Positions 5,591-45,875 of a stretch of DNA of 64,000 nt are shown here, piece by piece (position 1 is the first letter of the stretch; every line of letters starts with the position of its first letter). The notes under the pieces were generated by a model. That model searched no databases, was not told where the DNA came from, and was given only the letters and a program-made list of their open reading frames with translations. Source of the DNA: Streptococcus toyakuensis. GTDB lineage: Bacteria; Bacillota; Bacilli; Lactobacillales; Streptococcaceae. A program made the translations under genes and the position numbers. The stretch spans positions 1,559,001 through 1,623,000 of the forward strand of contig NZ_AP024523.1 in the NCBI RefSeq assembly GCF_024346585.1. The letters run 5' to 3'.

Positions 5591-6196
5591 CTATCTTTTC
5601 TCAATGATTTCATCTACTGGCAAGCGGTAGCTTGGTTCCAATTTTTCGTCTGTATAACCCACTGTAATCAAAAGTTCTGGGCGGAAACGGTCTTCGATTT
5701 CTAAAACCTCATTGACTTTTGATTTGTCAAATCCAAGAATCAGATTTGATCCGATTCCTTGGTCTGTAAGAGCCAGAACTAAGTTCATGGCAACCAAACC
5801 TGCATTGAGGGCTAGGTAGTCGCTGACCTGTTGTTCATTGTAGCGGGCGAATTCAGCTGGTAAATTTTTCATGAAGTATTGAAGTTGTTCTTCTGAGAAA
5901 TTGTTAGCACCACCAACTCGGGCAATCTTACGAGCACGTTTAGCCAAATCTGTGTCTGTAAACAGGGCAATAGTTACAGGCGCTGATGATACCTGTTCAA
6001 AGTTCGAACCGTAAGCCAATTTTGCCAGTTCGGCATTTTTCTCACGTACTACCACAAATTTCCATGGCTGGCTGTTGTGGGCACTGGGTGCCAAGGTTGC
6101 AATTTCGATAGCCGTACGCACATCTTTTGGATCCACCGGCTTATCAGTGAAATGCTTAGTCGCATGACGTTTTTTATTTAATTCAAGAAATTTCAT
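5591..6196 (-). CDS. FMN-dependent nitroreductase family protein
   Basis: 201 residues. Family motifs are the N-terminal KKRHATKHF (FMN phosphate-binding Arg/His) and PSAHNSQPWKFVVV (FMN-binding Ser-x-x-Asn). The C-terminal EPSYRLPVDEII fits the NfnB/NfsB-like group. These are homodimeric NAD(P)H-linked flavoenzymes that reduce nitro compounds or quinones; the natural substrate is unknown. AGGAAA precedes the start. First gene of an operon with pepV. Confidence 0.87.
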   Translation of the reverse strand: MKFLELNKKRHATKHFTDKPVDPKDVRTAIEIATLAPSAHNSQPWKFVVVREKNAELAKLAYGSNFEQVSSAPVTIALFTDTDLAKRARKIARVGGANNFSEEQLQYFMKNLPAEFARYNEQQVSDYLALNAGLVAMNLVLALTDQGIGSNLILGFDKSKVNEVLEIEDRFRPELLITVGYTDEKLEPSYRLPVDEIIEKR

Positions 6197-6228
6197 AATC
6201 GATTTCCTTTTCTAATTCTACTGCTTCC

Positions 6229-6238
6229 ATTCTACCAT
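6229..6238 (-). promoter_or_regulatory. Extended -10 promoter for nitroreductase-pepV
   Basis: TGGTAGAAT on the minus strand (TGn plus TAGAAT), about 32 bases before the start. No good -35 is visible. Confidence 0.45.
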
Positions 6239-6305
6239 AATTTGAAAGAGCTTGCAGGGATTTTTCATGATTAAGTTTTTTTATCACAACCATAAAAAAT
6301 ATATA

Positions 6306-6335
6306 TTGGTTCATCAAGACAGTTTCTGATAAACT
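6306..6335 (+). promoter_or_regulatory. Probable promoter of the binding-lipoprotein gene
   Basis: TTGGTT at 6306-6311 and TGATAAACT at 6327-6335 give a -35 and an extended -10 with 18-base spacing, about 30 bases before the ATG. Confidence 0.4.
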
Positions 6336-6366
6336 AGCAAGTACCTTACATTTGAATGGAGATATT

Positions 6367-7167
6367 ATGAAAAAATTTAGCCTATTATTAGCCATCCTAC
6401 CATTTTTGGTTGCCTGTGGAAATCAAGCCACACCTAAAGAGACCAGCTCTCAAAAGACAATCGTCGTTGCTACAGCTGGCGATGTGCCACCATTTGACTA
6501 CGAAGACAAGGGAAATCTGACAGGCTTCGACATCGAAGTTCTAAAAGCAGTTGATGAAAAACTCAGCGACTACGAGATTCAATTCCAAAGAACTGCCTGG
6601 GAGAGTATCTTTCCAGGACTTGATTCTGGTCACTATCAGGCTGCAGCCAACAACCTGAGTTACACAAAAGAGCGTGCTGAAAAATACCTCTACTCACTTC
6701 CAATTTCGAACAACCCCCTCGTCCTCGTCAGCAACAAGAAAAATCCTTTGACTTCACTTGACCAAATTGCTGGTAAAACAACGCAAGAAGATACCGGAAC
6801 TTCAAACGCTCAATTCATCAATAACTGGAATCAAAAACACACTGACAATCCCGCTACGATCGATTTTTCTGGCGAGGATATCGGTAAGCGAATCCTAGAC
6901 CTTGCTAACGGAGAGTTTGATTTCCTCGTTTTTGACAAGGTATCCGTTCAAAAGATTATCAAGGACCGTGGCTTGGACCTTTCTGTGGTTGACTTGCCTT
7001 CTGCCGATAGCCCCAGCAACTATATCGTTTTCTCAAGCGACCAAAAAGAGTTTAAAGAGAAATTTGATAAAGCGCTCAAAGAACTCTATCAAGACGGAAC
7101 ACTCGAAAAACTCAGCAATACCTATCTAGGTGGCTCTTACCTCCCAGATCAATCTCAGTTACAATAA
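6367..7167 (+). CDS. Amino acid ABC transporter substrate-binding lipoprotein
   Basis: 266 residues of the family-3 solute-binding fold. The signal peptide MKKFSLLLAILPFLVAC ends in a lipobox (LVAC), so the mature protein is lipid-anchored outside the membrane. The mature part has the typical TAGDVPPFDYEDKGNLTGFDIEV (ligand-pocket start) and QEDTGTSNAQF. Substrate is a polar amino acid, cystine or similar, not resolvable here. No permease or ATPase gene adjoins it, so it is an orphan receptor in this window. The start at 6367 (not the in-frame ATG at 6352) follows TGGAGA. Confidence 0.87.
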   Translation: MKKFSLLLAILPFLVACGNQATPKETSSQKTIVVATAGDVPPFDYEDKGNLTGFDIEVLKAVDEKLSDYEIQFQRTAWESIFPGLDSGHYQAAANNLSYTKERAEKYLYSLPISNNPLVLVSNKKNPLTSLDQIAGKTTQEDTGTSNAQFINNWNQKHTDNPATIDFSGEDIGKRILDLANGEFDFLVFDKVSVQKIIKDRGLDLSVVDLPSADSPSNYIVFSSDQKEFKEKFDKALKELYQDGTLEKLSNTYLGGSYLPDQSQLQ

Positions 7168-7175
7168 GATATATT

Positions 7176-7204
7176 AAAAACGATTGGACCAGCCAATCGT
7201 TTTT
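7176..7204. terminator. Bidirectional terminator between convergent genes
   Basis: Perfect 12-bp arms AAAAACGATTGG/CCAATCGTTTTT around 5 bases. U-runs occur on both strands. It serves the lipoprotein gene (plus) and the phosphoesterase gene (minus, ending 7233). Confidence 0.85.
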
Positions 7205-7232
7205 AGTTTGCATTGGTTATTTTAGGAAACTC

Positions 7233-8066
7233 TTACAAAAAATCAAAAAAATTCTTCACATCCTCTACATACCCATGCTTTTCTATTAAGCTGGCTAAGA
7301 GTTCCAGATTGTGCCCCTGATAGTTATCTTCTCTTCGTAGTTCTTCATACATTTCGATAAAGGGAAGACCCTGAGACTTAGCCAATTCCAACTCCGCTTC
7401 GTAGTCATAAGCAACTTTACGAAATAGGATATTTACCAATTCCCCATCTTCAACTTCTATCACGGCATACTGGGCACGGTGATTTTTTAACGCCTCCCAA
7501 TTAAAATAGGGCATACCAATCGAACCTGGATTGATAATTTGTTGCCCTTGACTGCCATAACGAAGCAACTGCTTGTGAACATGACCATAGACTGCCACGT
7601 CCGTTTCCTCATCTAGTAGTTGGTCAAATTTCTCTGTATCATTCTCAACTAGCAAGTCACCACCATAGTTCTTATTTGGCAAATTATGAGAGATAGAAAA
7701 GCGCAAGCCGTCAATTTCTTTCTTTTCAAGCAAAGGCAAGTTTCGTAACCAGACAATCGTTGTAGAATCCATTCGCTCCATCAAAAACTGGGTCAATCGC
7801 ATGAGCTGGACTTCCTGTGGGTCTTCTAAGCCATATTGCACATCTAAAGCCTCAAGGACACAATCATCCCAATTGCCTCGAACACTTGCCGTGATAGGAA
7901 GATCCTTTAGCAGGGTTACCAAGTCATTTGCACCGGGACCGGGAAGAAAAATATCTCCCAGAAGCCAGTATTCACTGACTCCTTGGTTTTTAGCATCTGC
8001 AATCACTGCTTCTAGGGCAGTTGTATTGCCATGAATATCTGATAAAATTGCGATTTTATGGTTCAT
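7233..8066 (-). CDS. Calcineurin-like metallophosphoesterase (YfcE/MJ0936-like)
   Basis: 277 residues. Dinuclear-metal phosphoesterase motifs in order: [10 protein letters not shown] (D-x-H-G-N) at residue 9, GDIFLPGPG near 38, GNWDD near 66, SHNLP near 130, VYGHVHKQ near 161. NPGSIGMP follows. A cytoplasmic phosphodiesterase or phosphatase of unknown substrate. Its start overlaps the end of uvrC by 11 bases, so translation is probably coupled. Confidence 0.85.
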
Positions 8067-9903
8067 GATGGTCTCCTTCTGTTTGATAATCTACTCTTTC
8101 TTCCGCCACTTGAGCCAATTCCTCTTCTTCCTGCGGGTTCAACTTGTTTTGCACAGCCTCTGCAACAGCTCTAGGCACACCGACTTCGACAATCTCATCC
8201 ACACTTGCTTCCTTGATTTTAGTTAGAGACTTGAAATGCTTCATGAGATTTTGCTTGCGTTTAGATCCCAGGCCGTCAATGCCATCCAATTGTGATGAAA
8301 AGGAATTTTTGGAGCGCAGTTGGCGGTGGAAAGTAATGGCAAAGCGGTGGACCTCATCTTGAATACGTTGGAGCAGGAAAAATTCCTGAGAATTGCGAGA
8401 CAACTCCACCACCTCAAGCGGATCTCCAAAGAGCAATTCATGGGTTTGGTGCTTATCATTCTTTTGCAAACCTGCAATGGGGATATCCAAGCCTAGCTCC
8501 TCTTGGATGACTTGCTTGGCGATATTGACTTGACCTTGTCCCCCATCAATCACAATCAAATCTGGCGGAGTCAAACCGTCACGCTGTACTCGACCATAGC
8601 GTCTGCGAATGACTTCTCTCATACTGGCATAGTCGTCTGGCCCAACGACAGTCTTGATTTTATACTTACGATAATCCTTCTTACTTGGTTTGCCGTTGAC
8701 AAAGACCACCATGGCTGAAACAGGACTGGTCCCCATGATGTTGGAGTTATCGAAAGATTCGATACGAACTGGGGTTGGAATTTGAAGCAAGCGTCCTAGA
8801 TTTTCAATAGCCCCTTGGGTCTTTTCGACAGATTTCTCTAGCAGATTGAACTTCTGCTCTAGACTGACTCGAGCATTCTTTATAGCCAAATTGACCAGTT
8901 GCTTTTTCTCTCCACGCTGAGGCTTAAGAATCTTGGTGTCTACCAAAGCCTTGACAGCTTCTTCGTCAATATCCTGCGGAATCAGCACCTCATTAGGAAC
9001 TAGATGAGATTTTTCTTGATAAAATTGTCCTACATAGGTCAAGAAATCCTCATCCGGATCATTATAATAGGGAAAAAGATTGACATCGCGCTCAATGAGC
9101 TTGCCCTGACGGACAAAGAAAACCTGGACACACATCCATCCCTTGGCCACATAGTAGCCAAAGACATCACGGTTTTGGAGATCCTTGGCCATGACCCGTT
9201 GCTTGGTTCGAAGCGTTCCAATGGCCTGAATCAGGTCACGGTATTCCGCTGCACGTTCAAACTCCATACTTTGTGCTGCGGATGCCATCTTGCCCTTGAG
9301 GTCATCGATGATTTTGTCATCCTGTCCTTTTAAGAAGTCAGAAACCTCCTGAGCCATAGACTTGAAGTAGGCCTCATCCTTCTTACAGATAGTGTGGGCC
9401 ATACATTGACCGATATGGTAGTAAAAACAAACCTTAGACGGTGGATTCGTACACTTTCTAAAAGGGAAAATTCGATCCAGCAGCCGCTTGATTTCATTGG
9501 CTGCCCCCACATCTGGGTAAGGTCCAAAGTAGAGACCGCCGTCCTTCTTGACCTGACGGGTGATAATTAAACGAGGATAGCGCTCATTGGTGATTTTGAT
9601 GAAGGGATAGGACTTGTCATCCTTGAGCATGATATTGTATTTAGGCTTATTTTCCTTGATAAGATTGATTTCTAGGAGAAGTGCCTCAATATTGGACTCC
9701 GTAACGATAAATTCAAAATCTACAATTTCAGACACCAAGGCCTCTGTTTTGGTATCATGACTTCCACGGAAATAAGACCTCACGCGGTTACGCAGATTTT
9801 TAGCCTTTCCCACATAGATAATGGTGCCGTTTTTATCCTTGTGAATGTAGCAACCTGGGCTGGTCGGCAAGAGCTCTAGTTTTGATTTAATCAAGTTATT
9901 CAT
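8056..9903 (-). CDS. uvrC: Excinuclease ABC subunit C
   Basis: 615 residues, full length. UvrC makes both incisions in nucleotide excision repair together with UvrA and UvrB. Domains: N-terminal GIY-YIG nuclease ([19 protein letters not shown], about 17-35), a cysteine-containing segment [17 protein letters not shown] near 155, the UVR/UvrB-binding helix near 205, an RNase H-like nuclease ([14 protein letters not shown] near 385, [10 protein letters not shown] near 450), and C-terminal helix-hairpin-helix ([15 protein letters not shown]). The start ATG is only 6 bases from a TATAAT; see the promoter entry. The phosphoesterase overlaps its 3' end. Confidence 0.96.
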
Positions 9904-9909
9904 AGTTCC

Positions 9910-9918
9910 ATTATAGCA
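9910..9918 (-). promoter_or_regulatory. uvrC extended -10, predicting a leaderless mRNA
   Basis: TGCTATAAT on the minus strand, a perfect extended -10, ends 6 bases before the uvrC ATG. Transcription would start at or next to the A of the ATG, and no Shine-Dalgarno sequence is present. The U-run of the upstream terminator directly abuts the TG. Confidence 0.6.
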
Positions 9919-9923
9919 AAAAA

Positions 9924-9945
9924 GTAGGGAAAGATTGTTCCCTAC
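9924..9945 (-). terminator. Terminator after the zinc protease gene
   Basis: 8-bp perfect arms GTAGGGAA/TTCCCTAC with a 6-base loop, then TTTTTT on the minus strand. The upstream arm contains the stop codon of the protease gene. Confidence 0.85.
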
Positions 9946-10643
9946 TCACTAGTCTCATATATTTTTCGAAGGTTTGCAACATCCACTTCCTGAATACCAT
10001 AAAAGGAACCCGCAGGTTGCATGACAGACTTTTCATCTGTATGGTCCAAGCCAATCGCATGCCCCAACTCATGTTCTGCCGTATGGACAATGCGCTCATA
10101 GGAATAGCCATAGTCTGGATTGGACAGATAATAGTGATTCAACCGCACCGTGACAGACAAGAATTGCCCCGTCAAGAGATTGGTCTGACTTTCCGCTTCT
10201 CCTGCCACAGGAGTACCTCCGTCATTCATCTCCGTAGCCAAGATATCTGCCTTGCTGGACTCAGTCACAAGTTCAAAATGAAAGGCACCGGTTTGATTCC
10301 AGTTCTGAATTGCTTCTAAATATGCCTCTTGAAAGCGTGAATCCATCTGCGGATCCAAGTAAATACGAGCAGAAGCCTGTGGCCATCTTCCTTCAGAATG
10401 CTGGTGGTTATCTGTCTGGTTCAACTTAGGCAGTTGCCCTGTTCTTTCCCATTGGTCGATACTTTGTTGACCAATTTTTACTGACCGTTCTGCTTGCTTC
10501 AGCGCCCCTTGAAAATCCCCGTTCAGATACCAGAGAAATCCAAAAGCAAGAGTACATAAAAGCAAAACAATCCAAACCAGACGCCAAAACAAACGCCAAA
10601 TAAAATAAAAGAAAGCCCCTATCAAACGAAAAAGCCAACGCAT
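9942..10643 (-). CDS. Membrane-anchored matrixin-like zinc protease
   Basis: 233 residues. The first 45 are a positively charged start plus one strong membrane segment (aromatic, Trp/Phe/Leu-rich), so the catalytic part faces outside. The metzincin motif [11 protein letters not shown] supplies three zinc ligands and the catalytic Glu near residue 200; SVMQPAG downstream acts as a Met-turn. Short for a matrixin, and with no recognisable propeptide. The start at 10643 follows GGTGGAGAG; an upstream in-frame start at 10664 is less likely. Substrate unknown. It lies next to murM/murN, so a wall or surface role is possible but only inferred. Confidence 0.75.
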
Positions 10644-10721
10644 ATCTCTCCACCTTTCTAGCAAATAAAGTCTATTTTACTAAAACAAGCTGAAAGAAAG
10701 CTAAATACTGGCTTTTTCATC

Positions 10722-11954
10722 TTAACGTCCTACTATTTTTTTGAATAACTGAATAGCTTTGTATTTTAAAGGCGATGGATGATAACGGAAAGTTCCTGCT
10801 TTACGTACAATATAGCCATTAAAATTTTGTTTAAAACGCAAAACACCATCACTACCATCAAAAATCCCTTGAATGCCTAGGAAGTTGTATTTAGGTATTC
10901 CACGTTTTATGCTTTCCAACATAACATATTTTTGAAGCAGTGCAGGGGCATAAAACTTATTAAACTCAGTGTAAGAACCACTAAAGAGATAAGTCGTTTC
11001 CTGAGGCATATAAACAAATAAACTCCCGGCTAAAACAATATCTTCTTCTCCATATTTTTCAATCAAGTCTCGCGCTTCTGCTTTTCGAACTTCAAACGTT
11101 TCAAATTGACTAGAATATTCTCTCAGTTGATTTTGTTTTTTCTCAGAATGAGGATTTTTACTCAAATCAAGTCGCAACTTGCCCAAGATTTCTTCTAGTT
11201 TACTTTGTTCACCTTGCAATTTGCTCATATAGTCCGAAAAATTTAAGCTTGCTATGAGAAACTCAGCTTGTTCTCCAAAAACATCATAAAAATGCTCATA
11301 ATATTCTAAACTTTTATCACTATATTCTCTACGTTCAGAGGTTTCTTTTGTGATGTTCTTAAAAATCGATAGTTCTTCACGTTTTAACTTTTTCAACCGA
11401 ATGCCAAAGGTTTCAGCCTTTTTCACCAAGGGTTTCCCTTTTTTGCTAAAACTTTTAAGCAAATTCTTTTCAGTTAATTCAGTCAAATCTTTATAGTATA
11501 ACCAATCCGGCTCTCCACCTGGATAACCTGTCGTCAAGCCATCAAATTGATAACCTAAATCAGTTAAACCATGAATGATATTTTTTTTCTCAGCATCTAT
11601 TGGATTACCTTGGCTATCAAAAGTTTGATAAGTTTCATAAGGTTTTACAAACAACTCTAATACACCATTTTGCTTGGCATATTCTTTTAACTCCGCATAA
11701 AAAACTGGAAGAGCATCTTGTTGGGTATAAATCGGCCCCGAATTGATCTCCATATGCAGACCACCCAGCATGGGCAAGCTATAAACCAGAGCTGCAACTT
11801 GAATCTCTCCTTCTTGTTTCAAAGCAAGATAAACAATTCGAGCCCCTCTTTTTTCTAGCAAATCCCCCATCTGGACAGATTGCATAAAGGAACGAGAAGA
11901 AACCTGATCAGAATAAGCCTGAAACTCTTCTTTCGTGAGTGTAATTAGTGCCAT
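10722..11954 (-). CDS. murN: MurN, second-position aminoacyltransferase for peptidoglycan branching
   Basis: 410 residues, the pneumococcal MurN length. FemABX family: two GNAT-like subdomains plus a helical arm (about 230-300, rich in Glu, Lys and Leu). MurN adds the second residue (L-Ala) of the dipeptide branch on the stem-peptide lysine, using alanyl-tRNA at the inner membrane face. C-terminal motifs YNFLGIQGIFDGSDGVLRFKQNF are conserved in Fem proteins. It starts 4 bases after the murM stop. Branched muropeptides support beta-lactam resistance in this group. Confidence 0.93.
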   Translation of the reverse strand: MALITLTKEEFQAYSDQVSSRSFMQSVQMGDLLEKRGARIVYLALKQEGEIQVAALVYSLPMLGGLHMEINSGPIYTQQDALPVFYAELKEYAKQNGVLELFVKPYETYQTFDSQGNPIDAEKKNIIHGLTDLGYQFDGLTTGYPGGEPDWLYYKDLTELTEKNLLKSFSKKGKPLVKKAETFGIRLKKLKREELSIFKNITKETSERREYSDKSLEYYEHFYDVFGEQAEFLIASLNFSDYMSKLQGEQSKLEEILGKLRLDLSKNPHSEKKQNQLREYSSQFETFEVRKAEARDLIEKYGEEDIVLAGSLFVYMPQETTYLFSGSYTEFNKFYAPALLQKYVMLESIKRGIPKYNFLGIQGIFDGSDGVLRFKQNFNGYIVRKAGTFRYHPSPLKYKAIQLFKKIVGR

Positions 11955-35100: not shown

Positions 35101-35466
35101 TTACTCCAGCTCAATTCCCTTCTCTCGAAGATTAGCCAGACACTCCTCATAGTAGGCATCGTCATGTTCGCTGTATATAGGACTAGTCAATTTTTCCTCT
35201 GCTAAATCTTCATAAGGAGGGCAGGTCTTACCGCGGTAGTTCTTGTCCAGCCACTCTGGACTAACCTTGTAGCCACGACGAGCCATCTCCTTCATGATCA
35301 AATCATGGTAGGCAAATAGCTGGTAAGGCGAGTGAGTAAAGACATAGTCCACCGTCGCATGCTTTCTACCCCAGCCATTGCCACGTAGAGCGCAACACTC
35401 TCGATGCTGCCCCAAGAGTTGAGGACGGGGAAGTTGTGAAATCAAAGCCTCATGCCAAAGTCTCAT
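35101..35466 (-). CDS. Pyrimidine-dimer DNA glycosylase/endonuclease V-like protein (TIGR02328 type)
   Basis: 121 residues. The segment RPQLLGQHRECCALRG lines up with the T4 endonuclease V core, and Glu23 of HRE sits at the position of the T4 catalytic Glu23. The T4 N-terminal Thr nucleophile is absent: residue 2 is Arg. The chemistry is therefore uncertain; it may use another amine or have a different role. Also visible: GNGWGRKHATVDYVFTH and YHDLIMKEMARRGY. It overlaps the DUF1722 gene by 17 bases and is the last gene after hsdM. Confidence 0.65.
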   Translation of the reverse strand: MRLWHEALISQLPRPQLLGQHRECCALRGNGWGRKHATVDYVFTHSPYQLFAYHDLIMKEMARRGYKVSPEWLDKNYRGKTCPPYEDLAEEKLTSPIYSEHDDAYYEECLANLREKGIELE

Positions 35467-35854
35467 GGGAGTCTCCTTTCAGTAAAGTCGAATGTTGCAA
35501 GTATGTATTTGGGTAACGTTCAAGTAAATCTCTCGTCTTAGCAATTAAGTCTTCTTTGGTGGCATGACCAGAGTGATAACGCTCCAGTAAAAACATATAA
35601 TCCTTGCGTTCATTCTCCGTTGCTTTCTTCTTGAAATATCCCCAAATATGCTGAAAGGCATTGCAAACCTGACCCCTGTGTTCTGGGATTTGACAGGCAT
35701 GGTCAATCATCTCTTGAACCTGACTCACTTCCACCACTTCTTGCTTGAGATATTGACGAATCTCATTGTAAATATTGCTAGAATGGCTCAAGACAAGGTA
35801 TTTGTTTCTAGCCCAGAGTTGTTGGCAAAGGGCACGTTGGTTGTTGTTTCCCAT
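35450..35854 (-). CDS. DUF1722 (YbgA-like) protein
   Basis: 134 residues matching the DUF1722 pattern: LWARNKYLVLSHS near 14, then a central conserved helix AFQHIWGYFKKKATENERKDYM and RYHSGHATKEDLI. YbgA of E. coli adjoins the photolyase gene phr, and here the partner is an endonuclease V-like gene, so a link to UV-damage handling is suggested but unproven. AGGAG precedes the ATG. It starts about 100 bases after hsdM. Confidence 0.65.
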   Translation of the reverse strand: MGNNNQRALCQQLWARNKYLVLSHSSNIYNEIRQYLKQEVVEVSQVQEMIDHACQIPEHRGQVCNAFQHIWGYFKKKATENERKDYMFLLERYHSGHATKEDLIAKTRDLLERYPNTYLQHSTLLKGDSHETLA

Positions 35855-35957: not shown

Positions 35958-37559
35958 TCACCCTTTAAACTCTTTCAAAAACTCTTTAAGCTCAGCATCG
36001 GCTTCTGGTGTGGTTCCGTGTAGTTGACCGAGCATTTCGAGTAGGGAAGCGGTTTGGTTTTGGATTGCTTGATTGGTTGTGTTAATCTTTCCAACGATAT
36101 CTGTCAGAGGCTCGACTTCTTCTTCCTCAAAGGTATCTACATAGCGAGGGATATTGAGGTTGTAGTCATTTTCAACGATTTCTTCATAACTTGCCAGATG
36201 GGCAAACTTGTCAATCTCCTCACGTGACTTGTAGGCTTCCAGAATCTTCTCGATATGCGCATCCGTCATGATATTCTGGTTTTTCCCCTTATCAAACTCC
36301 TTAGAAGCATCGATAAAGTAGACATCACGATTGGTACGGTTCTTTTTGAGAATGATGACCGTGGTCGGAATGCTGGTATTAAAGAAGATATTAGCAGGTA
36401 GACCGATAACCGTGTCAATGGCTCCTTCTTCTAACAAGGCCTTACGAATGGTTCCTTCCGCATTGCCACGGAAAAGAACCCCGTGAGGAAGGACGATAGC
36501 CATAACCCCATTATCCTGCTTGAGATGGTAGTAACCATGCAAAAGAAAGGCAAAGTCAGCCTTGGACTGGGGTGCCAGTTTCCCAAATGGAGAGAAACGA
36601 GGATCCGCCATAAAGCCAGAGCTTGCTGACCACTTGGCAGAGTAGGGCGGGTTCATGAGAACACCATCAAAGTTAGTCGGTTCTTGAGTCGGCCAGTCTT
36701 CATCTAGTGTATCGGCATTGTGGAGAAATTGATTTTCAACAGGAACACCGTGTAGAATCATGTTCATCCGAGCCAAATTATAGGTTGAGGTATTGAGCTC
36801 CTGACCAAAGTAGACCACCGTCTGCGGTTTATGAGAGTATTTCTTGGCATTGAGCAAGAGAGAGCCAGACCCCATAGTCGCATCATAGATGGTAAAGCCT
36901 AGCTGATCCTCACGACCCAAAAAGGCAATCTGAGTCATGAGTTTGGCAACAGGCTGAGGTGTATAGAACTCACCAGCCTTCTTACCCGAGTCAGTCGCAA
37001 ACTGACCAATCAGATACTCATAAGCATCTCCCAGCATATCACCAGCATGACCAGCCACATCTAGCACAGCCAACTCTTTCATGACCGCCGCCACCGTTTG
37101 GTTTTGCTTTTGCGGAGTTGCCCCTAGCTTTTTGGAATAGAGATCAATATCTTCAAAGAGATTTTCATAGAGTTCATCACTCTGCTCAATATCTCGAAAA
37201 CCCTGAGCCAAATCTTCCAACTGGAAAGTTCCCTCATTGACACGTGCTACAAGAGCCGTAAAGGTCAACTCAGGCTTGATACTATAGTTGAGTTCGTCCT
37301 TCATCACTGCAAGAAGATCCTCGTGGGTGTCCGCATCCTCATAGTAGTTGCGATAGACCTCAAGGGCAGTCTCTAGACTCTCACTCCCCTCCTCCATAGT
37401 CTCCGCCACGAAAAAGAGCATCTTATCTGACAGGTACTTATAAAAGACCATGCCCAAGAGATAGGACTTGTAGTCATTAGCATCCATCTTAGAGCGGAGA
37501 ACATCCGCTGAGTTCCACAGGGCTTGGTAGAGCGACTGGGACGTTTGTGTTGTTTCCAT
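35958..37559 (-). CDS. hsdM: Type I restriction-modification methylase subunit HsdM
   Basis: 533 residues. N-terminal helical domain (about 1-160), then an N6-adenine methyltransferase: GEFYTPQPVAKLM near 196, SAM-binding DATMGSGSLL near 226, catalytic NPPYSAKW at 303-310. With HsdS it forms the methylase and, with HsdR, the restriction complex. Unusually it is separated from hsdS by a 1.9-kb ATPase gene. An AGAAAG-type ribosome site precedes the start. Confidence 0.95.
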   Translation of the reverse strand: METTQTSQSLYQALWNSADVLRSKMDANDYKSYLLGMVFYKYLSDKMLFFVAETMEEGSESLETALEVYRNYYEDADTHEDLLAVMKDELNYSIKPELTFTALVARVNEGTFQLEDLAQGFRDIEQSDELYENLFEDIDLYSKKLGATPQKQNQTVAAVMKELAVLDVAGHAGDMLGDAYEYLIGQFATDSGKKAGEFYTPQPVAKLMTQIAFLGREDQLGFTIYDATMGSGSLLLNAKKYSHKPQTVVYFGQELNTSTYNLARMNMILHGVPVENQFLHNADTLDEDWPTQEPTNFDGVLMNPPYSAKWSASSGFMADPRFSPFGKLAPQSKADFAFLLHGYYHLKQDNGVMAIVLPHGVLFRGNAEGTIRKALLEEGAIDTVIGLPANIFFNTSIPTTVIILKKNRTNRDVYFIDASKEFDKGKNQNIMTDAHIEKILEAYKSREEIDKFAHLASYEEIVENDYNLNIPRYVDTFEEEEVEPLTDIVGKINTTNQAIQNQTASLLEMLGQLHGTTPEADAELKEFLKEFKG

Positions 37560-37583
37560 AGTGTTTCTTTCTTTTTTATAAAT

Positions 37584-39461
37584 TCAAAAATCTAACGATT
37601 TGTCCAATAGTTTCATTTCTAATTCTTCAAAATATTTATGACGTAATGTAATCTGTAAATCATTATTCATTGCAATACTATTTAAAGCTTTTTCTTTAAA
37701 GTTAGAAACTATTTCTTTAATTTCTTTGGAAGAAATTATTTCATTTTTCAAGTTACAAATCTTTAAAATTTTCGAAAAATCTGAAGAAGCTATGCTATCT
37801 TCCACCATTTTAGTTATATTTTCTAATGTTACAGTTATATCAAATTTTTCTGATAAATTTTCTAAAAATGTCCGTGCTTCATCCTCGGTTGGTTCTCTTG
37901 TTTCTATCAAATTCCCTTCCATAAATTCATCAAGTTTCTTTTTCAAGGCAATTCGTATTATCTTATCTTTATTTGTTGTACATAAACCAATAACAGTGTC
38001 TCGAAGCTTATTAATTTTTTGTTTTTTATCTTCCTCATCATCAGATAGAACAGAATTCACCATTTCTTCATCTACCAAAAGCATCTCTATCTCATTAAAA
38101 GGGAGCACAAAAATATTTTTCTTTTTATAGCTTTCAATTCTTGCCTCATCCATCCAGTCATAATCAATAATGCCGTATGCTTTATTACCATATGTTTCCT
38201 CTAATTTATTGTAAGCTTTTGTGTATTGAATAACTTGTTTATGCCCTTGAACTGGTTTGACAAAACAAAATTCACTGAATAATTTGGAATATATTTGATA
38301 GTCCAGACTATTTTTAGTTCCTTCGCAAAACAAAATTGGCTTTTTTGCACCAGATACTTCAGTTAATAATGGTAATGGTATTTCTTGTGATTCTTCCAAC
38401 ACCTGATAATCCAAATCATAAGGTGCTTCAAAATTCTTACACCATATATAGGTTGCATTTGTTCTAGATTGAACAAAGTCCATGTTATGTGAAGCAAAAA
38501 TAAATTGACAATCAGGTCGCTCTGATATGAGCAAATCCCATAATTCATTATAGACGGCAGCATTTAGAAATGTTTCTGGTTCGTCAACGACAATATAGCT
38601 ATTCTCTGGAGCTAGAAGAACACTGCCTATATAAAATAAAATACAACGTTCTCCATCACTAAGACCATTTATACTATATTTAGAGTGATTTTTTTCAACG
38701 TTTACAATTATCTTTATAGGATCAATTTCAAAACTAATTTCTGGTTTAATTTTATTCCATATTTTTTCTAATTTTTGCCACAAAGATAATGACGAATCGT
38801 TTTGTCCTCTGAATTTATAAGTAGCCACAACCATAACATCTTTTACTAATAGTGTTATTAAGTTAGTAAAAGTATTTGAAAAATTCTCTTCAATATTTGA
38901 TGGATACAAATTAATGGTATCGTATTTAATATTTGTCTTTTTCAAATCGAGAATGTAATTCTCTTGTTCAATATTATTACGATTATGAATATTAGACACA
39001 AAATATAATAGTTTCTGAGCAGGTAAAACATACATCTCATCAATACTATTCTTCCTTAATTCATTAATAAGACTTGATTTTCCCGCTCCATTAGCTCCTA
39101 TTATAACAGTTGTAGAATCAACTTTCGAAATAAATGAGAAAAGTTTAATTACTTTAAAATTCTCTAAAATTTGAGGTAAATTTGTTTCATACATATAAAC
39201 ATCACTACCATGACAACTAAATATATTTCCTAACCAATTCTCACGTAGTTTTTTATACTTTTCTGTCACATAACCAGATAAAAACTCATCATCTAGTTCG
39301 TTATTAACCAAATCAATAAGGGTAGAAAACCAATCATCTACTTGTTGGTAGCTAGTCTTATATGATTCTTGTTCATAATCAGCTAATTCACTAAAGATAT
39401 CTTGAAGTCTTTTCTTTTCAAATTTTAAATTTTCAATTAAATCTTTAATAGAGCTATACAT
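37584..39461 (-). CDS. AAA ATPase fused to DUF4435/Toprim-like domain (merged PARIS AriA-AriB-like)
   Basis: 625 residues. Residues 1-115 are helical; Walker A GANGAGKSS at 122-130; ABC-type signature LSDGE at 267-271; Walker B IVVDEPE at 290-296; switch SHNMD near 324. From about 373 a DUF4435 domain begins: FCEGTKNSLD (Glu380), IIDYDWMDE (Asp433-x-Asp435) and PFNEIEMLLVDEE near 454, giving the Glu plus DxD acidic set of Toprim nucleases. This order is that of PARIS fused to one chain, where the ATPase senses phage anti-restriction proteins and the Toprim part cuts tRNA. OLD-family or RloA-type proteins are alternatives. AAGGAGG precedes the start. It lies 9 bases after hsdS and 24 before hsdM. 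Markedly A+T-rich. Confidence 0.72.
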   Translation of the reverse strand: MYSSIKDLIENLKFEKKRLQDIFSELADYEQESYKTSYQQVDDWFSTLIDLVNNELDDEFLSGYVTEKYKKLRENWLGNIFSCHGSDVYMYETNLPQILENFKVIKLFSFISKVDSTTVIIGANGAGKSSLINELRKNSIDEMYVLPAQKLLYFVSNIHNRNNIEQENYILDLKKTNIKYDTINLYPSNIEENFSNTFTNLITLLVKDVMVVATYKFRGQNDSSLSLWQKLEKIWNKIKPEISFEIDPIKIIVNVEKNHSKYSINGLSDGERCILFYIGSVLLAPENSYIVVDEPETFLNAAVYNELWDLLISERPDCQFIFASHNMDFVQSRTNATYIWCKNFEAPYDLDYQVLEESQEIPLPLLTEVSGAKKPILFCEGTKNSLDYQIYSKLFSEFCFVKPVQGHKQVIQYTKAYNKLEETYGNKAYGIIDYDWMDEARIESYKKKNIFVLPFNEIEMLLVDEEMVNSVLSDDEEDKKQKINKLRDTVIGLCTTNKDKIIRIALKKKLDEFMEGNLIETREPTEDEARTFLENLSEKFDITVTLENITKMVEDSIASSDFSKILKICNLKNEIISSKEIKEIVSNFKEKALNSIAMNNDLQITLRHKYFEELEMKLLDKSLDF

Positions 39462-39470
39462 AATTCCTCC

Positions 39471-40715
39471 TTAAATAAACATATCCTGCAAGAGTTTCTT
39501 TTTCAGTGTTTCTAACTGAGAAATTTTTTCGTGGTGAGAATTGATAAGGTTATCGAGTGTGGAAAAATAGGCACCGATGGCTTGTTGTTCAGGGAGAGAT
39601 GGGATAAGTACTTTTTTCGATAGTAATTCCACTTTAGTAATACCCTTTATTGATGTCCCTTGAAGTTGGTTAACTTCCTTTTGAAGTAATCTATATAGCA
39701 AATATGCTGTGAATTCTATATTGGATTTAAGATTTGAGAGTGATAAAAAATCCTGACTTGTTGCGTATTCATGACGCATCACCGCTAACTTCCCAACTCC
39801 AACTCTCGTAACAACCGCAATTGAATCTTTTGGTATTATTTTGGCTGATGAACTTTCCAAACCTTTCTCAGAAATACTTTTTTGAACTTTAATCTCAAAT
39901 AGACAATTTATCCCTAAGTCAGATGACTGAATCCAAGGAATATCCCCATCCCAATATTCCTGAACATTTGTTTTTGGAGTGCCACCACTTTGAAAGTCAT
40001 CAGCTAAATCATTAATTTCACAAAGCTCCCACTCACCTTCGAATCCATCCAAACGAATCTCAGGGACTGTCTGTCCAGCTTTTGGAAACATCTTGGAGAG
40101 CATGGTCGCTTTAAGAGATTGGTAGTTGGTAAGATTATCTTTGTAGCTAGACAGAAGGTCGTCGAGGGTACGGAAAAGGGTACCGATGGCGGATTGTTCA
40201 GAGTAAGATGCGATTCCAATCTTCCAATCTCCATATTCTTTCCCATTAACGCCAGGTTGACCTGACCGTTGTGAAGTGATATCAATAAATTGCTTATACT
40301 TATCAGTAAGAGTCTGCTGAAAAACAAAATTTCCATCATATGAATCATGTAATCTCGCTCTAATTAAGAATCCAGCATAATAAACTTCACCATCTGATTC
40401 TCTGTAAAGATAGGTTTTCCCAACACTCGCACCAGTACGTGCGAATAGGAGATCGTTCTTCTGCAATTTATAGTTTTCATAATTTTCTTCAGAAAAATCA
40501 ACATCTGGAGAGCTAAGTTTCGCAGTTAAAAACAATCTAGAAGTATCGTCTATATCTGTGATTCTAAGATACTTATGAATACCATCAAAGTTCTTCGCAG
40601 GAGCATTTATACCATATTCGATAGCATTTGATATTTCATCAAGTGTTTTATAGTTCCACTTATCATTAAAATTAACAAATCTAATTTTTGGAATTCTTCT
40701 ATTCTGATTTTTCAT
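39471..40715 (-). CDS. hsdS: Type I restriction-modification specificity subunit HsdS
   Basis: 414 residues with two target-recognition domains. The first covers about 1-160, then a conserved spacer (SEQSAIGTLFRTLDDLLSSY...KATMLSKMFP), then a second domain from about 205 (EIRLDGFEGEWE) and a second spacer copy (PEQQAIGAYFSTLDNLINSH...KKKLLQDMF). The two spacers are internal repeats. The bipartite target cannot be read off. The start at 40715 (or GTG at 40721) overlaps the HNH gene end by 17 bases. No second hsdS or recombinase is seen, so no phase-variable shuffling is evident. Confidence 0.93.
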   Translation of the reverse strand: MKNQNRRIPKIRFVNFNDKWNYKTLDEISNAIEYGINAPAKNFDGIHKYLRITDIDDTSRLFLTAKLSSPDVDFSEENYENYKLQKNDLLFARTGASVGKTYLYRESDGEVYYAGFLIRARLHDSYDGNFVFQQTLTDKYKQFIDITSQRSGQPGVNGKEYGDWKIGIASYSEQSAIGTLFRTLDDLLSSYKDNLTNYQSLKATMLSKMFPKAGQTVPEIRLDGFEGEWELCEINDLADDFQSGGTPKTNVQEYWDGDIPWIQSSDLGINCLFEIKVQKSISEKGLESSSAKIIPKDSIAVVTRVGVGKLAVMRHEYATSQDFLSLSNLKSNIEFTAYLLYRLLQKEVNQLQGTSIKGITKVELLSKKVLIPSLPEQQAIGAYFSTLDNLINSHHEKISQLETLKKKLLQDMFI

Positions 40716-41334
40716 AATCACTTCTTTCTGACTGTTTTAACACGTTAGTTTCATTCTTTATTTTCAACACTTTTTCACAATAAGCATCAAAATGATTATT
40801 AATAATATCAACTAAATCATTTTTTAAATCACTTGATCTCTTATCAATATCAGATTTCTTAAAATTATTTCTTCTAAAAACTTCATTAATGTAAAACTTT
40901 GACTCATCTTCTTCATGTAAGACTTTCTTTTTTTCTTCAAAATTTTCGTTTGAAATTTCTACATTTGTATCTCTATGTAATAAAGTTAAATTCCCTAATT
41001 TATTCTTGTCAGAATCACCCAGTTCAAAATCACTTTGAGGTATAATATGTTCCAACTGCCAAATCAATTTACCTTTATGATCTAACTCTGTAAAATCGAT
41101 TGTTCTATCATTATTTTTAAACTTCTCAATACTAACAAGCAGAAAACGAGTGAAGTGAACGTGAGTCCCACGATAGTAATTTTCTCGTCTCCTATTCTCG
41201 TCATTCATAAAACTCAAGATTACTTCTTGGTAGTTCCCTGTTTGCAGATACCTATGCTTTTTATCCTGTTTCTCAAAATAATCTAAAAATTTAGTTCCAA
41301 ATACTTTTTTAAAACTACTTCGTAACTCCTGCAT
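40699..41334 (-). CDS. HNH endonuclease domain protein (DUF1524/GmrSD C-terminal type)
   Basis: 211 residues. Core motif WQLEHIIPQS near 92-101, then KNKLGNLTLLHRDTNVEISNENFEEKKKVL, which is the DUF1524 HNH fold (His-His/Asn) known as the C-terminal half of GmrSD-like type IV nucleases. Here it stands alone without the DUF262 half, so it is either a separate nuclease or a remnant. The start at 41334 follows AAGAGGA. First gene of the HNH-hsdS-ATPase-hsdM transcript; A+T-rich. Confidence 0.75.
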   Translation of the reverse strand: MQELRSSFKKVFGTKFLDYFEKQDKKHRYLQTGNYQEVILSFMNDENRRRENYYRGTHVHFTRFLLVSIEKFKNNDRTIDFTELDHKGKLIWQLEHIIPQSDFELGDSDKNKLGNLTLLHRDTNVEISNENFEEKKKVLHEEDESKFYINEVFRRNNFKKSDIDKRSSDLKNDLVDIINNHFDAYCEKVLKIKNETNVLKQSERSDYEKSE

Positions 41335-41438
41335 GTATTTCCTCTTTCTTAACTTCTGAATCAACCTATCATCGTGTCAAATGAAAATATAGTCTTTTGA
41401 CATTTTTCTATGAGATACTCTTGTTAAACTATACTAAA

Positions 41439-41447
41439 ATTATACCA
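41439..41447 (-). promoter_or_regulatory. Extended -10 promoter for HNH-hsdS-ATPase-hsdM
   Basis: TGGTATAAT on the minus strand, about 105 bases before the HNH start and just after a terminator, giving this block its own transcript separate from hsdR. Confidence 0.6.
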
Positions 41448-41463
41448 CGAAACCACAAAAATC

Positions 41464-41489
41464 CCCCTTAGAAATCCGCTTCTAAGGGG
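41464..41489 (-). terminator. Terminator after the 253-residue hypothetical gene
   Basis: Perfect 10-bp arms CCCCTTAGAA/TTCTAAGGGG; GATTTTTG follows on the minus strand. Confidence 0.85.
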
Positions 41490-41495
41490 TTGTCT

Positions 41496-42257
41496 TTATC
41501 CTGCTGCTTGGGCTGGTTCTGCTGGTTTGGTCTTTTTATCTTTCTTGCTACTAGTGATGAGACGGCGTTTGCTATCTCGGATGCCATTAAGTTCCTTGAG
41601 GAGTTGAGTCAGGTGTTCCTTTTCAGGATAGGCTTCTGCACTGGCTGCGGTATAGCGCATAAAGAGGTCGTAGCTGGTTGAAAGTTCGATACGGAGTTGT
41701 CTGGTCTTGCCAACTTCCTTGGCAGACTTAGAAGCACGCGCCTTACTTTCCACTTGGTCATATTCCTCTTGAGCATTGACCACCGCCGTCAGCATAGGGG
41801 TCAGTCCTAGACTGGTAACTGCCTCATGATAGGGTGTTTCACTAAGCGTTTTGAGCAGGCTCTTGATTTCTGCCGTCTCTACATCATTGCTGTGCTTAGT
41901 GATGTCCTTGTACTTGGCAAAGACTGGTTTCAGAGTTTCATGAGCTTCTTTGAGCTTAACATCCTTAATCTTAGCAAATCCTCTATGAAGGGTAAAGAGA
42001 CCGACCAAGGCACTATCACGATTGCGATCAACTTCTGTCAGATTACTAGACTCTTTCGTTTCCACCACTGCAAGTTGAGCTTGAAAATCATCCAGCTTGG
42101 TTTTGAAGGGTTCCAAATGTTTGGCATACATAGCTTCATCCTTGTTTGTCTTAGAGAAAGTGAGCAAAATTTGATGAGTATCCATCATCAGGCTTTCAAA
42201 CTCACGGTTGGTAAAGTTGCTGTAACTAAGAGGGCGAATAGCGTATGTTTTTGTCAT
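41496..42257 (-). CDS. Uncharacterised helical protein in the hsd locus
   Basis: 253 residues, not recognised with confidence. Almost entirely helical and charged, with coiled-coil-like stretches (DDFQAQLAVVETKE, EEYDQVESKARASKSAKEVG) and a basic, Ala/Pro-rich tail (SSKKDKKTKPAEPAQAAG). No membrane segment, signal peptide or nuclease motif. The start at 42257 follows AAAGGATATC; an in-frame start at 42305 would overlap the gene before. It lies between hsdR and the HNH gene and ends in its own terminator. DUF6261-like by general look only. Confidence 0.6.
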   Translation of the reverse strand: MTKTYAIRPLSYSNFTNREFESLMMDTHQILLTFSKTNKDEAMYAKHLEPFKTKLDDFQAQLAVVETKESSNLTEVDRNRDSALVGLFTLHRGFAKIKDVKLKEAHETLKPVFAKYKDITKHSNDVETAEIKSLLKTLSETPYHEAVTSLGLTPMLTAVVNAQEEYDQVESKARASKSAKEVGKTRQLRIELSTSYDLFMRYTAASAEAYPEKEHLTQLLKELNGIRDSKRRLITSSKKDKKTKPAEPAQAAG

Positions 42258-42282
42258 GATGATATCCTTTCTATTTAACGAA

Positions 42283-42498
42283 TCATTTATTATCTTCTCT
42301 ATCAAACCAAGACTGGATTAGTTCTGGAAGATAGACCTGTTTTTGATCTGTTTTTACAATGCTTCCTTGTCTAGGAGGTTGAACCAAAGGTCTATCCTTA
42401 AATACAAAGACTTGAAACAATGCACAGACCAAAAATAGAAGCCCCCATAAAGGAAGTGTCGATAGCATACTCTCCTCATCATCTTTAACTTTCTTCAT
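42283..42498 (-). CDS. Small single-pass membrane protein in the hsd locus
   Basis: 71 residues. An acidic/basic N-terminus (KKVKDDEESM), one membrane helix (LPLWGLLFLVCALFQVFVF, about 14-32), and an outer or inner tail of about 38 residues. AAAGGAG at good spacing supports the start at 42498. It is 25 bases ahead of the 253-residue gene and likely co-transcribed with it. Not recognised. Confidence 0.6.
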   Translation of the reverse strand: MKKVKDDEESMLSTLPLWGLLFLVCALFQVFVFKDRPLVQPPRQGSIVKTDQKQVYLPELIQSWFDREDNK

Positions 42499-42632
42499 CA
42501 ATTTTTCTCCTTTAAGTTGATACATTCATTCTAACAGTTTCCAAAACATTTTAACCCCCATCCGCTCAACTGTCATTATTTCCATTCAAAATGTACTTTT
42601 CAGGACAAATCAGACAGTTCCAAATTAAAAAA

Positions 42633-42884: not shown

Positions 42885-45875
42885 CTATCTCCCAACCCTC
42901 AACGGCTCAATGACTTCCTCTACTAGCTGGGTATAGGCTTCCTTGATTTGTTTTTTATAGAGGAGAGGATTGAGGGCATCTGCCACCTCTAGCTTATAGT
43001 CCTGATAGCGCTGGCTCTTAGTCAGTTGGCTTTCTCCTAGTTGTTTTTTAGCTCCCTTACGGTAATGTTCGGCATAGTAACGGAGTTCATCCTCGCCGAC
43101 ATACCAGCGCTTGCTAAAGACTTGGATATGTTGCTGGATGACAGCCTCTATCATCTGATCCAAGATATTGGCAATGGACTGACCACGATAGCTTTCTGGA
43201 TGTTCTTGAACTTCTCTCCAAAGTTCAGTGATAATCTGAGCAAGATTGGGATTGGTCTTCTCAAGACTCTGAATATAGTTATCCACGGCTTCCTTATCTT
43301 GAGAGCTTAGGTGCTTTTCTTGACTTTGACCTTGTTCAATCAGGCTTTGGATCAAGGTTAGGATATAGGCATAGTTGATTTCGTCCACTTGGATAGACTC
43401 CAGTTCATAGTGGATATCAAGTGGCTCTCCATCGTCATCATCCTCTACTCGACTTTTTAATTCTGCAAGGACATTTCGATAAAGGCCCAGATACCTTTCC
43501 AACTTCTCTCCATCAAGTCCCGTCTGACTGTAAACTTCTTCCTCATCATACTCTTTATACACTCGGATAGAGGCTAGGTACTTATCAAGAGCTTGATAGG
43601 TTTTAGCTAGTTTCCTCAACTCAGGCGTAGAGACTTGCTCGAAATCTAGACCATTCACATAGTCATCAGTAGCAAGATTTTTGAAATCACTGCAACTCCG
43701 TAAAAAGTTCCTCTTTTCCTCTTCCCAGCTTGGAGCTAGAACCTCGTTTTCACCACCATTTGAGTAGAGCTTGAGGGCATTATCTACTGCTTCCTTAAAG
43801 GCTAGAGGCTTTTGGAAGGTGATGATATGACCGTAGGTCTTACTGCTGTCAAAAATACGGTTGGTTCGGCTAAAAGCCTGAATCAAGTCCTGCGGTTGCA
43901 TGGGCTTGCGGTCGATAAAGAGAGTTGACAGACAAGGGGCATCAAACCCCGTTAGGAGACGATTGACTACGATGACTAAGTCCAACTGCTCATTGCGATA
44001 GAGGTATTTGTCCTGCTTTCGAGCTAGGCGGTTATTGACATCCGTATTAAAGCCACGCAGATCCGCCATGGTAAAATGGGTATCAAACTCTTGGTTATAG
44101 TCTTCTAAAACCTGCTTCATGTGGTCTTGATTGGCTCTTGAGTCTTCTTCATTTTCTGTGACCGAGTAAGTGATAGTCGCCTTTGGAAAGTCAGGAAGGA
44201 CCTGCTTGACCCTCTCCGATACCTTGACTCTCGTCTCCCCAGCCTTGACTCGTTTGAGGAGATCATAGCAGGCTTGAGCTTGAGGGATTGACTTGACGGT
44301 CAGGATAGCATTATAGGTCTTACCCACTCCTTTTTGGAAGCCTAGCTGTTGACGAGATTTATTGATAATGGCATCCAAGACTTCCAGCATATGCTCCTCA
44401 TCCTCGTAGACAGTATCTGGTATGTCATTTTCAGATTTATCCGTGATGAGGGTATTGCGATAATCTACCTTAAAGCCTAAAACTGCTCCATCATGGATGG
44501 CTTCCTTGACTGTATACTCATGGAGACGGTCTCCGTACTGTTGCTGGGTGGTTTGAGCTAGATCGCCGACTTGCTGGCGTTTATTTTCCTTAAAGATAGG
44601 TGTGCCTGTAAAGCCATACCAGAGAGACTGTGGGAAAAAGGTCTGAATGTCTTTTTGTGTTTGAGGTGTTACGGCACGGTGGCATTCATCCACGACAAAG
44701 GCCACTCGAAGGCCCCTGATTTTGTCCGCATCACGCTGGTAAAGTCCTTGCTCAAACTTACGCATCATGGTGGTGATTTTCTGGATAGTAGTTACCACCA
44801 CACGCTTATCGTTACTTCCTAGTCGCTTGACCAAATCATGAGTATTATCCGTCTCATCGATATCAATGACATCATTGGTCGCATAGGAGAGAAATGACGA
44901 AGTGGTCTGTTGATCCAAGTCCCTTCGGTCAACGACAAAAATCGTCTTTTGGATGGAAGGAATATGGAGGAGATTCCGAGCTACCTTATAAGAAGTCAGG
45001 GTCTTACCTGAACCTGTCGTGTGCCAGACATATCCTGATGCTTGCTGGCGAGAGGCTTCTTGCACTGCTTCGATTGCATGGATCTGGTAGGGACGCAGGA
45101 GGATAAGAGCCTTCTTGCTATCATCAAGGACAGAATACTGCATAACCATCTGGTGGGCACGAGGGATGGAAAGGACTTCGTGGGCAAAACTGGTCAAGCT
45201 CGTTATGGGTTGGTTGTCTTTATCCACCCACTTAGTTAGAAATTGCTTGTTGAGTTTATTTTCCCTAGCCGCAGCGATATAGCGTGTGTCTACTTTATTG
45301 GTCACAACAAACATCTGTAAGCTAGAGTAGATGCCACGGAACTTTCCTTCTCTATCATACTTCTTAATTTGATGAAAGGCATCTAGAAAAGCAACCCGGG
45401 GACTTTTAAGCTCGATCTGAATCATTGGAAGGCCATTGATCAAGAGGGTCACATCTAGCCTGCGGTCTTGATCCTGAGGATTTATCTTATCTCTCTCGAC
45501 TTGGTTGACAACCTCATAACTAGACTTACCAGCCGCGATATTATCTCGCCAAATGACAGATAAACGGATAGTCCCCAAACTAGCATCTTCTCTCTGGACC
45601 TCAACCTTGGCAATGCCATTTTCTCCGACCAACCACTTGGCCGCATCATAGTAGCTAACAAAGTTCAGTTGATTCTTTATCTGGCGTTTTTCCTGTTCTG
45701 TCAGGGGATGATCTGCCAATAGAGCCACATTGTTCTGGGCTAGCTTTTCAAAGAAATTTTCCCATAATTGCTCTTCTGTTTTGAGGTCTTCTCTGTAAGT
45801 CCATTGACTTTCCCCAGTCACCAGTTGGTTGATCAGTTGTTTTTCCATCTCCAGTTCTGGTTTTACCTGTATCAT
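42885..45875 (-). CDS. hsdR: Type I restriction enzyme subunit HsdR
   Basis: 996 residues. N-terminal PD-(D/E)xK nuclease ([22 protein letters not shown] near 138-160), then SF2 translocase: Walker [11 protein letters not shown] near 286, VVDECHRA (DECH box) near 390, GFTGTPIF motif III near 420, and [18 protein letters not shown] with [10 protein letters not shown] further on. A C-terminal helical domain binds the methylase. AAAGGAGAG precedes the ATG. It has its own promoter and terminator and is separated from hsdS/hsdM by two unrelated genes and a terminator. Confidence 0.95.

Follow-up and report, generated by a model that had tools for sequence, protein, structure and literature searches.

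A single-chain PARIS gene as a probable exchangeable cassette in a two-slot type I restriction operon of streptococci

PARIS is regarded as a second line of defence behind restriction. Here we describe ariAB, a gene that encodes PARIS as one fused chain and lies inside a type I restriction-modification (RM) operon of Streptococcus toyakuensis. It was found in a stretch of 64,000 nucleotides, here called the window (contig NZ_AP024523.1, positions 1,559,001 to 1,623,000 of the forward strand), whose coordinates are counted from its first letter. We consider it probable that ariAB is an exchangeable cassette in an operon with two internal cargo slots, slot A running from hsdR to hsdS and slot B, where ariAB resides, from hsdS to hsdM. 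This explanation builds on points that are directly established: the family identity of the protein, the conservation of its motifs, the predicted fold of its effector half, its position, the alternative occupants of that position, the empty alleles and the scattered occupancy.

Such an operon packages restriction and PARIS physically and modularly, with different streptococci loading different second-line systems into the same frame. Matched filled and empty operons form a natural set for probing the cooperation between restriction and its fallback, cassette by cassette. Slot position also offers a route to new defence genes, some slot genes (clusters c30 and c10, below) having no profile match.

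A fused PARIS protein with conserved motifs

The gene ariAB (37584..39461, minus strand) is an open frame of 625 amino acids that runs from 39461 to 37584; the opposite, plus strand across the same interval is riddled with stops. The first-pass annotation of this DNA had the coordinates and the embedding between hsdM and hsdS right; the strand is minus, giving the order hsdS-ariAB-hsdM. The protein consists of a helical N-terminal region (about residues 1-107), an ABC-type ATPase (about 104-343) and a Toprim/DUF4435 domain (about 360-625) that is predicted to be tRNase-like. In Pfam, AAA_21 scores 43.7 bits and DUF4435, over residues 374-592, scores 40.0 bits, each with a cut-off of 27, so the protein unites in one chain the AAA_15/AAA_21 ATPase and DUF4435 domain that define PARIS as one protein or a gene pair. 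The fused-PARIS model of PADLOC (AriAB, PDLC02982) covers residues 113-615 with an E-value of 5.6e-107. When the C-terminal Toprim domain of the predicted structure was searched alone by fold, AriB was the best match; a profile search of this half against PDB sequences gave no useful match.

AriAB might instead be a DNA-acting ATPase-nuclease of the OLD, Gabija or Septu type that owes its PARIS label to a common ATPase. The full-length model does have OLD, GajA and PtuA chains among its top fold matches, and the GajA profile matches with an E-value of 5.2e-07. However, the AriAB profile is better by about 100 orders of magnitude, DUF4435 lies above its cut-off and the C-terminal domain alone has AriB as its top fold match, which makes the OLD/Gabija/Septu identity very unlikely. 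A best match to OLD/RloA lacking DUF4435, named beforehand as an outcome that would overturn the fused AriA-AriB assignment, did not occur, and that assignment holds on profile, fold of the effector half and motifs alike.

Motif conservation was assessed in an alignment of 17 rows, namely the window's AriAB and 16 relatives that are 30 to 88% identical. Within the Walker A motif proposed earlier at residues 122-129, G122, N124, G125, G127 and K128 are invariant in all 17 sequences, while A123, A126 and S129 are not fixed. The proposed LSDGE (267-271) and DEPE (293-296) are borne out, as S268-E271 and D293-E296 are invariant (17/17) and L267 is nearly so. The acidic residues of the Toprim half, predicted as Glu380 and Asp433-x-Asp435, likewise proved invariant in every row, and their loss in relatives, which would have spoken against the prediction, was not seen. 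From the aligned ranges, rather than from a residue alignment, E380 would correspond to AriB E26.

Proposed mode of action

In characterised PARIS an AriA assembly restrains AriB, a negatively charged anti-restriction protein releases it, and the freed AriB dimers cleave tRNA-Lys and halt growth (PMC12409363; PMC11455837). AriAB resembles the E. coli P4 satellite system (AriA plus AriB) in its ATPase and DUF4435/Toprim parts, its conserved catalytic residues and its AriB-like fold. It differs in being a single polypeptide whose gene lies on a Streptococcus chromosome, within a type I RM operon and not at a phage-satellite hotspot, and the fusion sets sensor to effector at one to one, against six to three (AriA6-AriB3) in two-gene PARIS. 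By analogy, the AriA-type ATPase part would act as a sensor that holds the Toprim part inactive; on meeting a negatively charged anti-restriction protein it would release the Toprim part, which would cut tRNA (tRNA-Lys in E. coli) and stop translation. Restriction would then be the first line, and AriAB would be triggered by a phage protein that puts restriction out of action, with no need for contact between AriAB and HsdM/HsdS. Sharing one operon, restriction and a fallback suicide response would be expressed and transferred together.

AriAB recurs between hsdS and hsdM

The window's operon reads, on the minus strand, from hsdR (42885..45875; TIGR00348, 325 bits, cut-off 284.55) through three more genes to hsdS (39471..40721; Methylase_S, E 1.2e-31), ariAB and hsdM (35958..37559; TIGR00497, 364 bits, cut-off 242.75; N6_Mtase, E 6.4e-107). 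Slot B is bounded upstream by the final codons of hsdS and downstream by hsdM; the upstream hsdR had gone unmentioned in the first-pass annotation.

Because the AriAB model at its default threshold also matches 6 of 14 control genomes, a cut-off of E 1e-20 was adopted, at which none of them matches. At this cut-off 18 of 284 Streptococcus genomes carry AriAB, and in 16 of the 18 it sits in slot B, G258 and G037 being the exceptions. The suggested survey of streptococci thus finds the hsdS-ariAB-hsdM order to be recurrent and the placement not random; haphazard siting in relatives, also named beforehand as a refutation, was not seen. At one locus (L007) a toxin-antitoxin-like pair shares slot B with AriAB. 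An order-level sample gave 16 matches in 395 genomes, seven of them in other Lactobacillales beyond Streptococcus; only one of these seven (G404) has AriAB adjoining hsdM, and there it stands before hsdM, not within the hsdS-hsdM interval. The single match among 398 genomes of a phylum sample is the window's own genome. Distant relatives, all below 60% identity, occur on 26 plasmid records, and one Oenococcus phage (two records) also carries a distant relative.

Two slots with separate repertoires

HsdM relatives at E 1e-150 are present in 100 of the 284 Streptococcus genomes, 74 of them at 76% identity or more. Setting aside the slot-B AriAB carriers left 58 genomes, of which 56 were fetched (G165 and G219 have a partial hsdM) and 54 parsed (L107 and L130 end at contig ends with no hsdS). 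Together with 17 AriAB loci these make 71 loci, or 70 once L030, a near-copy of L008, is dropped; it was retained in the slot permutation below. Open reading frames (ORFs) under 70 amino acids were ignored and those at contig edges treated as open. Eight of the 70 loci stop short of hsdR, so that slot A may be cut there.

Slot B is occupied in 64 of the 70 loci and empty in six. Tenant names are annotations from one representative per cluster rather than functional assignments. By profile, slot B holds AriAB, a PDC-S34 HAD protein, PDC-S61, a KAP NTPase, a Gp49-like protein with a helix-turn-helix (HTH) partner, DUF6119, a CBASS cyclase with a two-transmembrane (2TM) Nudix effector, DolA-DolB (Dodola), DUF4238, and a KwaA-like protein with a 275-amino-acid partner that lacks a match to any KwaB model. 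Slot A holds SIR2 with HerA, AbiH, Tmn, IetA with IetS, the AAA_13 protein PDC-S06, ThsA-like proteins of SIR2 and macro type, HamB (Hachiman), Drt2, AbiP2, a Schlafen-AlbA protein and the HNH/GmrSD_C protein of the window. Several slot-gene representatives match no profile in Pfam or PADLOC, among them those of the 192-amino-acid cluster c30 (L078, L080) and of cluster c10 (L079, L089 and others); both clusters are candidate new defence genes. No integrase appeared among the profiled slot representatives, although no search was aimed at integrases.

The two repertoires hardly overlap. Among the 48 gene clusters found in at least two loci, one (c10) is common to both slots, whereas swapping slot labels within loci in 5000 trials, relatedness being ignored, gave a mean of 35.5 shared clusters and never fewer than 21. 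The 71 loci show 54 distinct contents in slot A (some cut by contig ends) and 26 in slot B, combined in 66 ways, and AriAB is paired with 11 different slot A contents in the 13 of its loci that extend to hsdR.

Heavy cargo is a trait of this family. In a sister type I family, whose HsdM is 67-73% identical to the window's, slot B is empty in 10 of 12 loci, against 64 of 70 occupied here (Fisher p 2.1e-7); the 12 were hand-picked from about 30 matches, with hsdS required upstream of hsdM and L142, L143 and L150, of different gene order, excluded. The second type I system of the window's own genome (L135) has an empty slot B too, which argues that the cargo does not belong to type I operons generally in these genomes. 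The two filled sister loci are L152, with a DUF6261 protein, and L137, where the KwaA-like pair lies in the hsdS-hsdM interval and suggests that cargo may cross between the two families.

Conserved edges and scattered occupancy

In the window, hsdS and ariAB are separated by 9 nt (39462..39470, minus strand; GGAGGAATT) that hold a Shine-Dalgarno sequence only, and ariAB and hsdM by 24 nt (37560..37583, minus strand) with a recurrent AGAAAG ahead of the hsdM start. Both edges are widely conserved: in 61 of 70 loci the hsdS tail departs from CTCTTGCAGGATATGTTTAT by at most three mismatches, AGAAAG occurs within 25 nt ahead of hsdM in 62 of 70, and 15 of 16 AriAB loci have exactly 9 nt between hsdS and ariAB, the exception being L032 with 37 nt. 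The empty alleles L075, L076 and L091 have hsdS-hsdM spacers of 52, 63 and 53 nt that begin with the same bases; L126, L127 and L128 are likewise empty, with differing spacers. In L084 a near-copy of the L091 spacer follows downstream of the CBASS genes, as expected from entry of a cassette next to an old junction. The junctions are compatible with recombination at conserved edges, and we infer from the sequences that the conserved hsdS tail and hsdM head serve as the sites of homologous recombination by which cassettes are swapped. Mitis-group streptococci undergo natural transformation, which perhaps aids the exchange.

The distribution of the cassettes also speaks for exchange. An HsdM tree with 66 rows, poorly resolved (29 of 62 inner branches weak) and without a shuffled control, requires 16 changes for the 16 AriAB carriers, 12 for PDC-S61, 10 for PDC-S34, 8 for KAP and 5 for the KwaA-like pair; four loci with a short hsdM frame (L122, L125, L128, L129) were excluded. 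L003 and L004 share 99% identity in AriAB and 39% in HsdS. Across 14 close loci AriAB has a median identity of 72% and HsdM one of 95%, and the two divergences correlate weakly (Mantel r 0.22, p 0.01); the r of 0.88 across 16 loci depends on L032 and L034.

Guard, passenger or fallback

The first-pass annotation took the position of the gene as a sign of a guard tied to its ward, with AriAB dedicated to this HsdM/HsdS complex, kept in its operon for co-inheritance and perhaps in direct contact with it. PrrC is held by the EcoprrI restriction enzyme in direct contact. The residence of 16 of 18 streptococcal carriers in slot B fits such a guard, as does the precedent of PrrC, a tRNA-Lys nuclease within a type IC locus, together with the recognition of Ocr by PARIS (PMC12707154). 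However, at least ten unrelated modules use the same slot and the AriAB carriers are spread over the HsdM tree, so that the position indicates a two-slot defence hotspot and is not enough to identify a guard with its ward. The low correlation with HsdM among close loci, the single hsdM neighbour among seven carriers beyond Streptococcus, and the lack of any N6_Mtase match at E 1e-20 in two of the nine non-embedded carriers (two Streptococcus and seven other Lactobacillales) weigh on the same side. So do broken genes, mostly in draft assemblies: hsdM is broken next to an open ariAB in G089 and G153, and ariAB itself in G206 and G108. Moreover, characterised PARIS senses Ocr itself, and OcrF54V blocks EcoKI yet escapes PARIS (PMC9122126). 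A dedicated guard is therefore unlikely.

Anti-restriction genes of the ArdA family also live alongside AriAB, in 7 of 16 slot-B carriers (the window's genome included) compared with 59 of the remaining 268 genomes (Fisher p 0.064), a further point against the guard; when all carriers are taken, ArdA is in excess (8 of 18 compared with 58 of 266; p 0.041). Resident ArdA as a constitutive trigger of AriAB was considered and rejected, as it would predict carriers devoid of ArdA and no avoidance is seen. The full-length ArdA-family gene of the window's genome lies outside the window, at G000:C1:1817168-1817635.

A passive passenger is the other alternative: the operon would be a safe, expressed insertion site and its tenants functionally unlinked to restriction. 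The variety of tenants, including CBASS, toxin-antitoxin and SIR2-HerA, suits this idea, and slot fidelity could also be explained by homology at the slot edges. Against it, the slot-specific repertoires (1 of 48 clusters common) and the few empty slots (6 of 70) suggest that insertion is not by chance, and we hold the passenger explanation to be possible though doubtful. Conversely, slot B, by the hsdM start, might select modules that answer the disabling of the methyltransferase, AriAB having adapted to watch HsdM/HsdS itself and not just free DNA mimics; this we regard as quite unlikely. The exchangeable slot B cassette remains the explanation we favour.

Relation to known systems

Embedded defences are reportedly the subject of a 2024 preprint by Payne et al. 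Genes within type I operons are already known; the placement of PARIS and the two-slot streptococcal operon appear to be the new part. Rousset et al. 2022 (PMC9122126) described single-gene PARIS fusions, and PARIS has been found in S. suis via PADLOC, its location not being stated in the available portion of that report (PMC12479173). PrrC, embedded in the type I locus EcoprrI, is triggered by inhibition of the enzyme (PMC12707154); prrC and ariAB share the embedding, but the proteins are unrelated. In Campylobacter jejuni, hsd loci carry rlo genes between hsdR and hsdS and mlo genes between hsdS and hsdM (PMC5183652), intervals of the kind in which the window's ariAB and 16 of 18 streptococcal carriers also lie; in the accessible part of that account there is no mention of PARIS or of defence repertoires specific to a slot. 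Type I RM operons also house TgvAB of Vibrio cholerae (PMC12409362) and DarTG2 of enteropathogenic E. coli (EPEC; PMC12255303), in each case one defence module in the hsdS-hsdR interval, two exchanging slots not being described in the portions available. Among the literature matches listed, none describes PARIS inside a streptococcal hsd operon, or a streptococcal operon whose two slots have separate repertoires and exchange their contents.

PF13166 (AAA_13), which we take to be the Pfam family of PrrC, is absent among the 15 Pfam matches of the window's AriAB up to E 0.1. At locus L002, slot A (5669-7870 of that locus) holds a member of a cluster whose representative, L092, matches PF13166, and slot B of the same operon holds AriAB (9126-10988).

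Other features of the operon

In the window strain the slot A cargo spans 40699..42525 on the minus strand and comprises an 80-amino-acid ORF (42283-42525), a gene for a DUF6261 protein (41496-42305) and a gene for a 221-amino-acid HNH/GmrSD_C protein (40699-41364), all on that strand. The last of these overlaps hsdS by 23 nt, its product has no DUF262 match, and its relatives recur in slot A. Between the DUF6261 and HNH genes a consensus scan picked out a strong terminator-like hairpin of 11 pairs (41464..41489, minus strand), which may separate an hsdR transcript from an HNH-hsdS-ariAB-hsdM transcript; a promoter scan performed at chance level (27 found, 26.8 expected). Downstream of hsdM lie genes for a DUF1722 protein and a pyrimidine dimer glycosylase (35101-35854, overlapping by 17 nt), a pair that trails hsdM in 9 of 19 loci examined, the window's locus counted.
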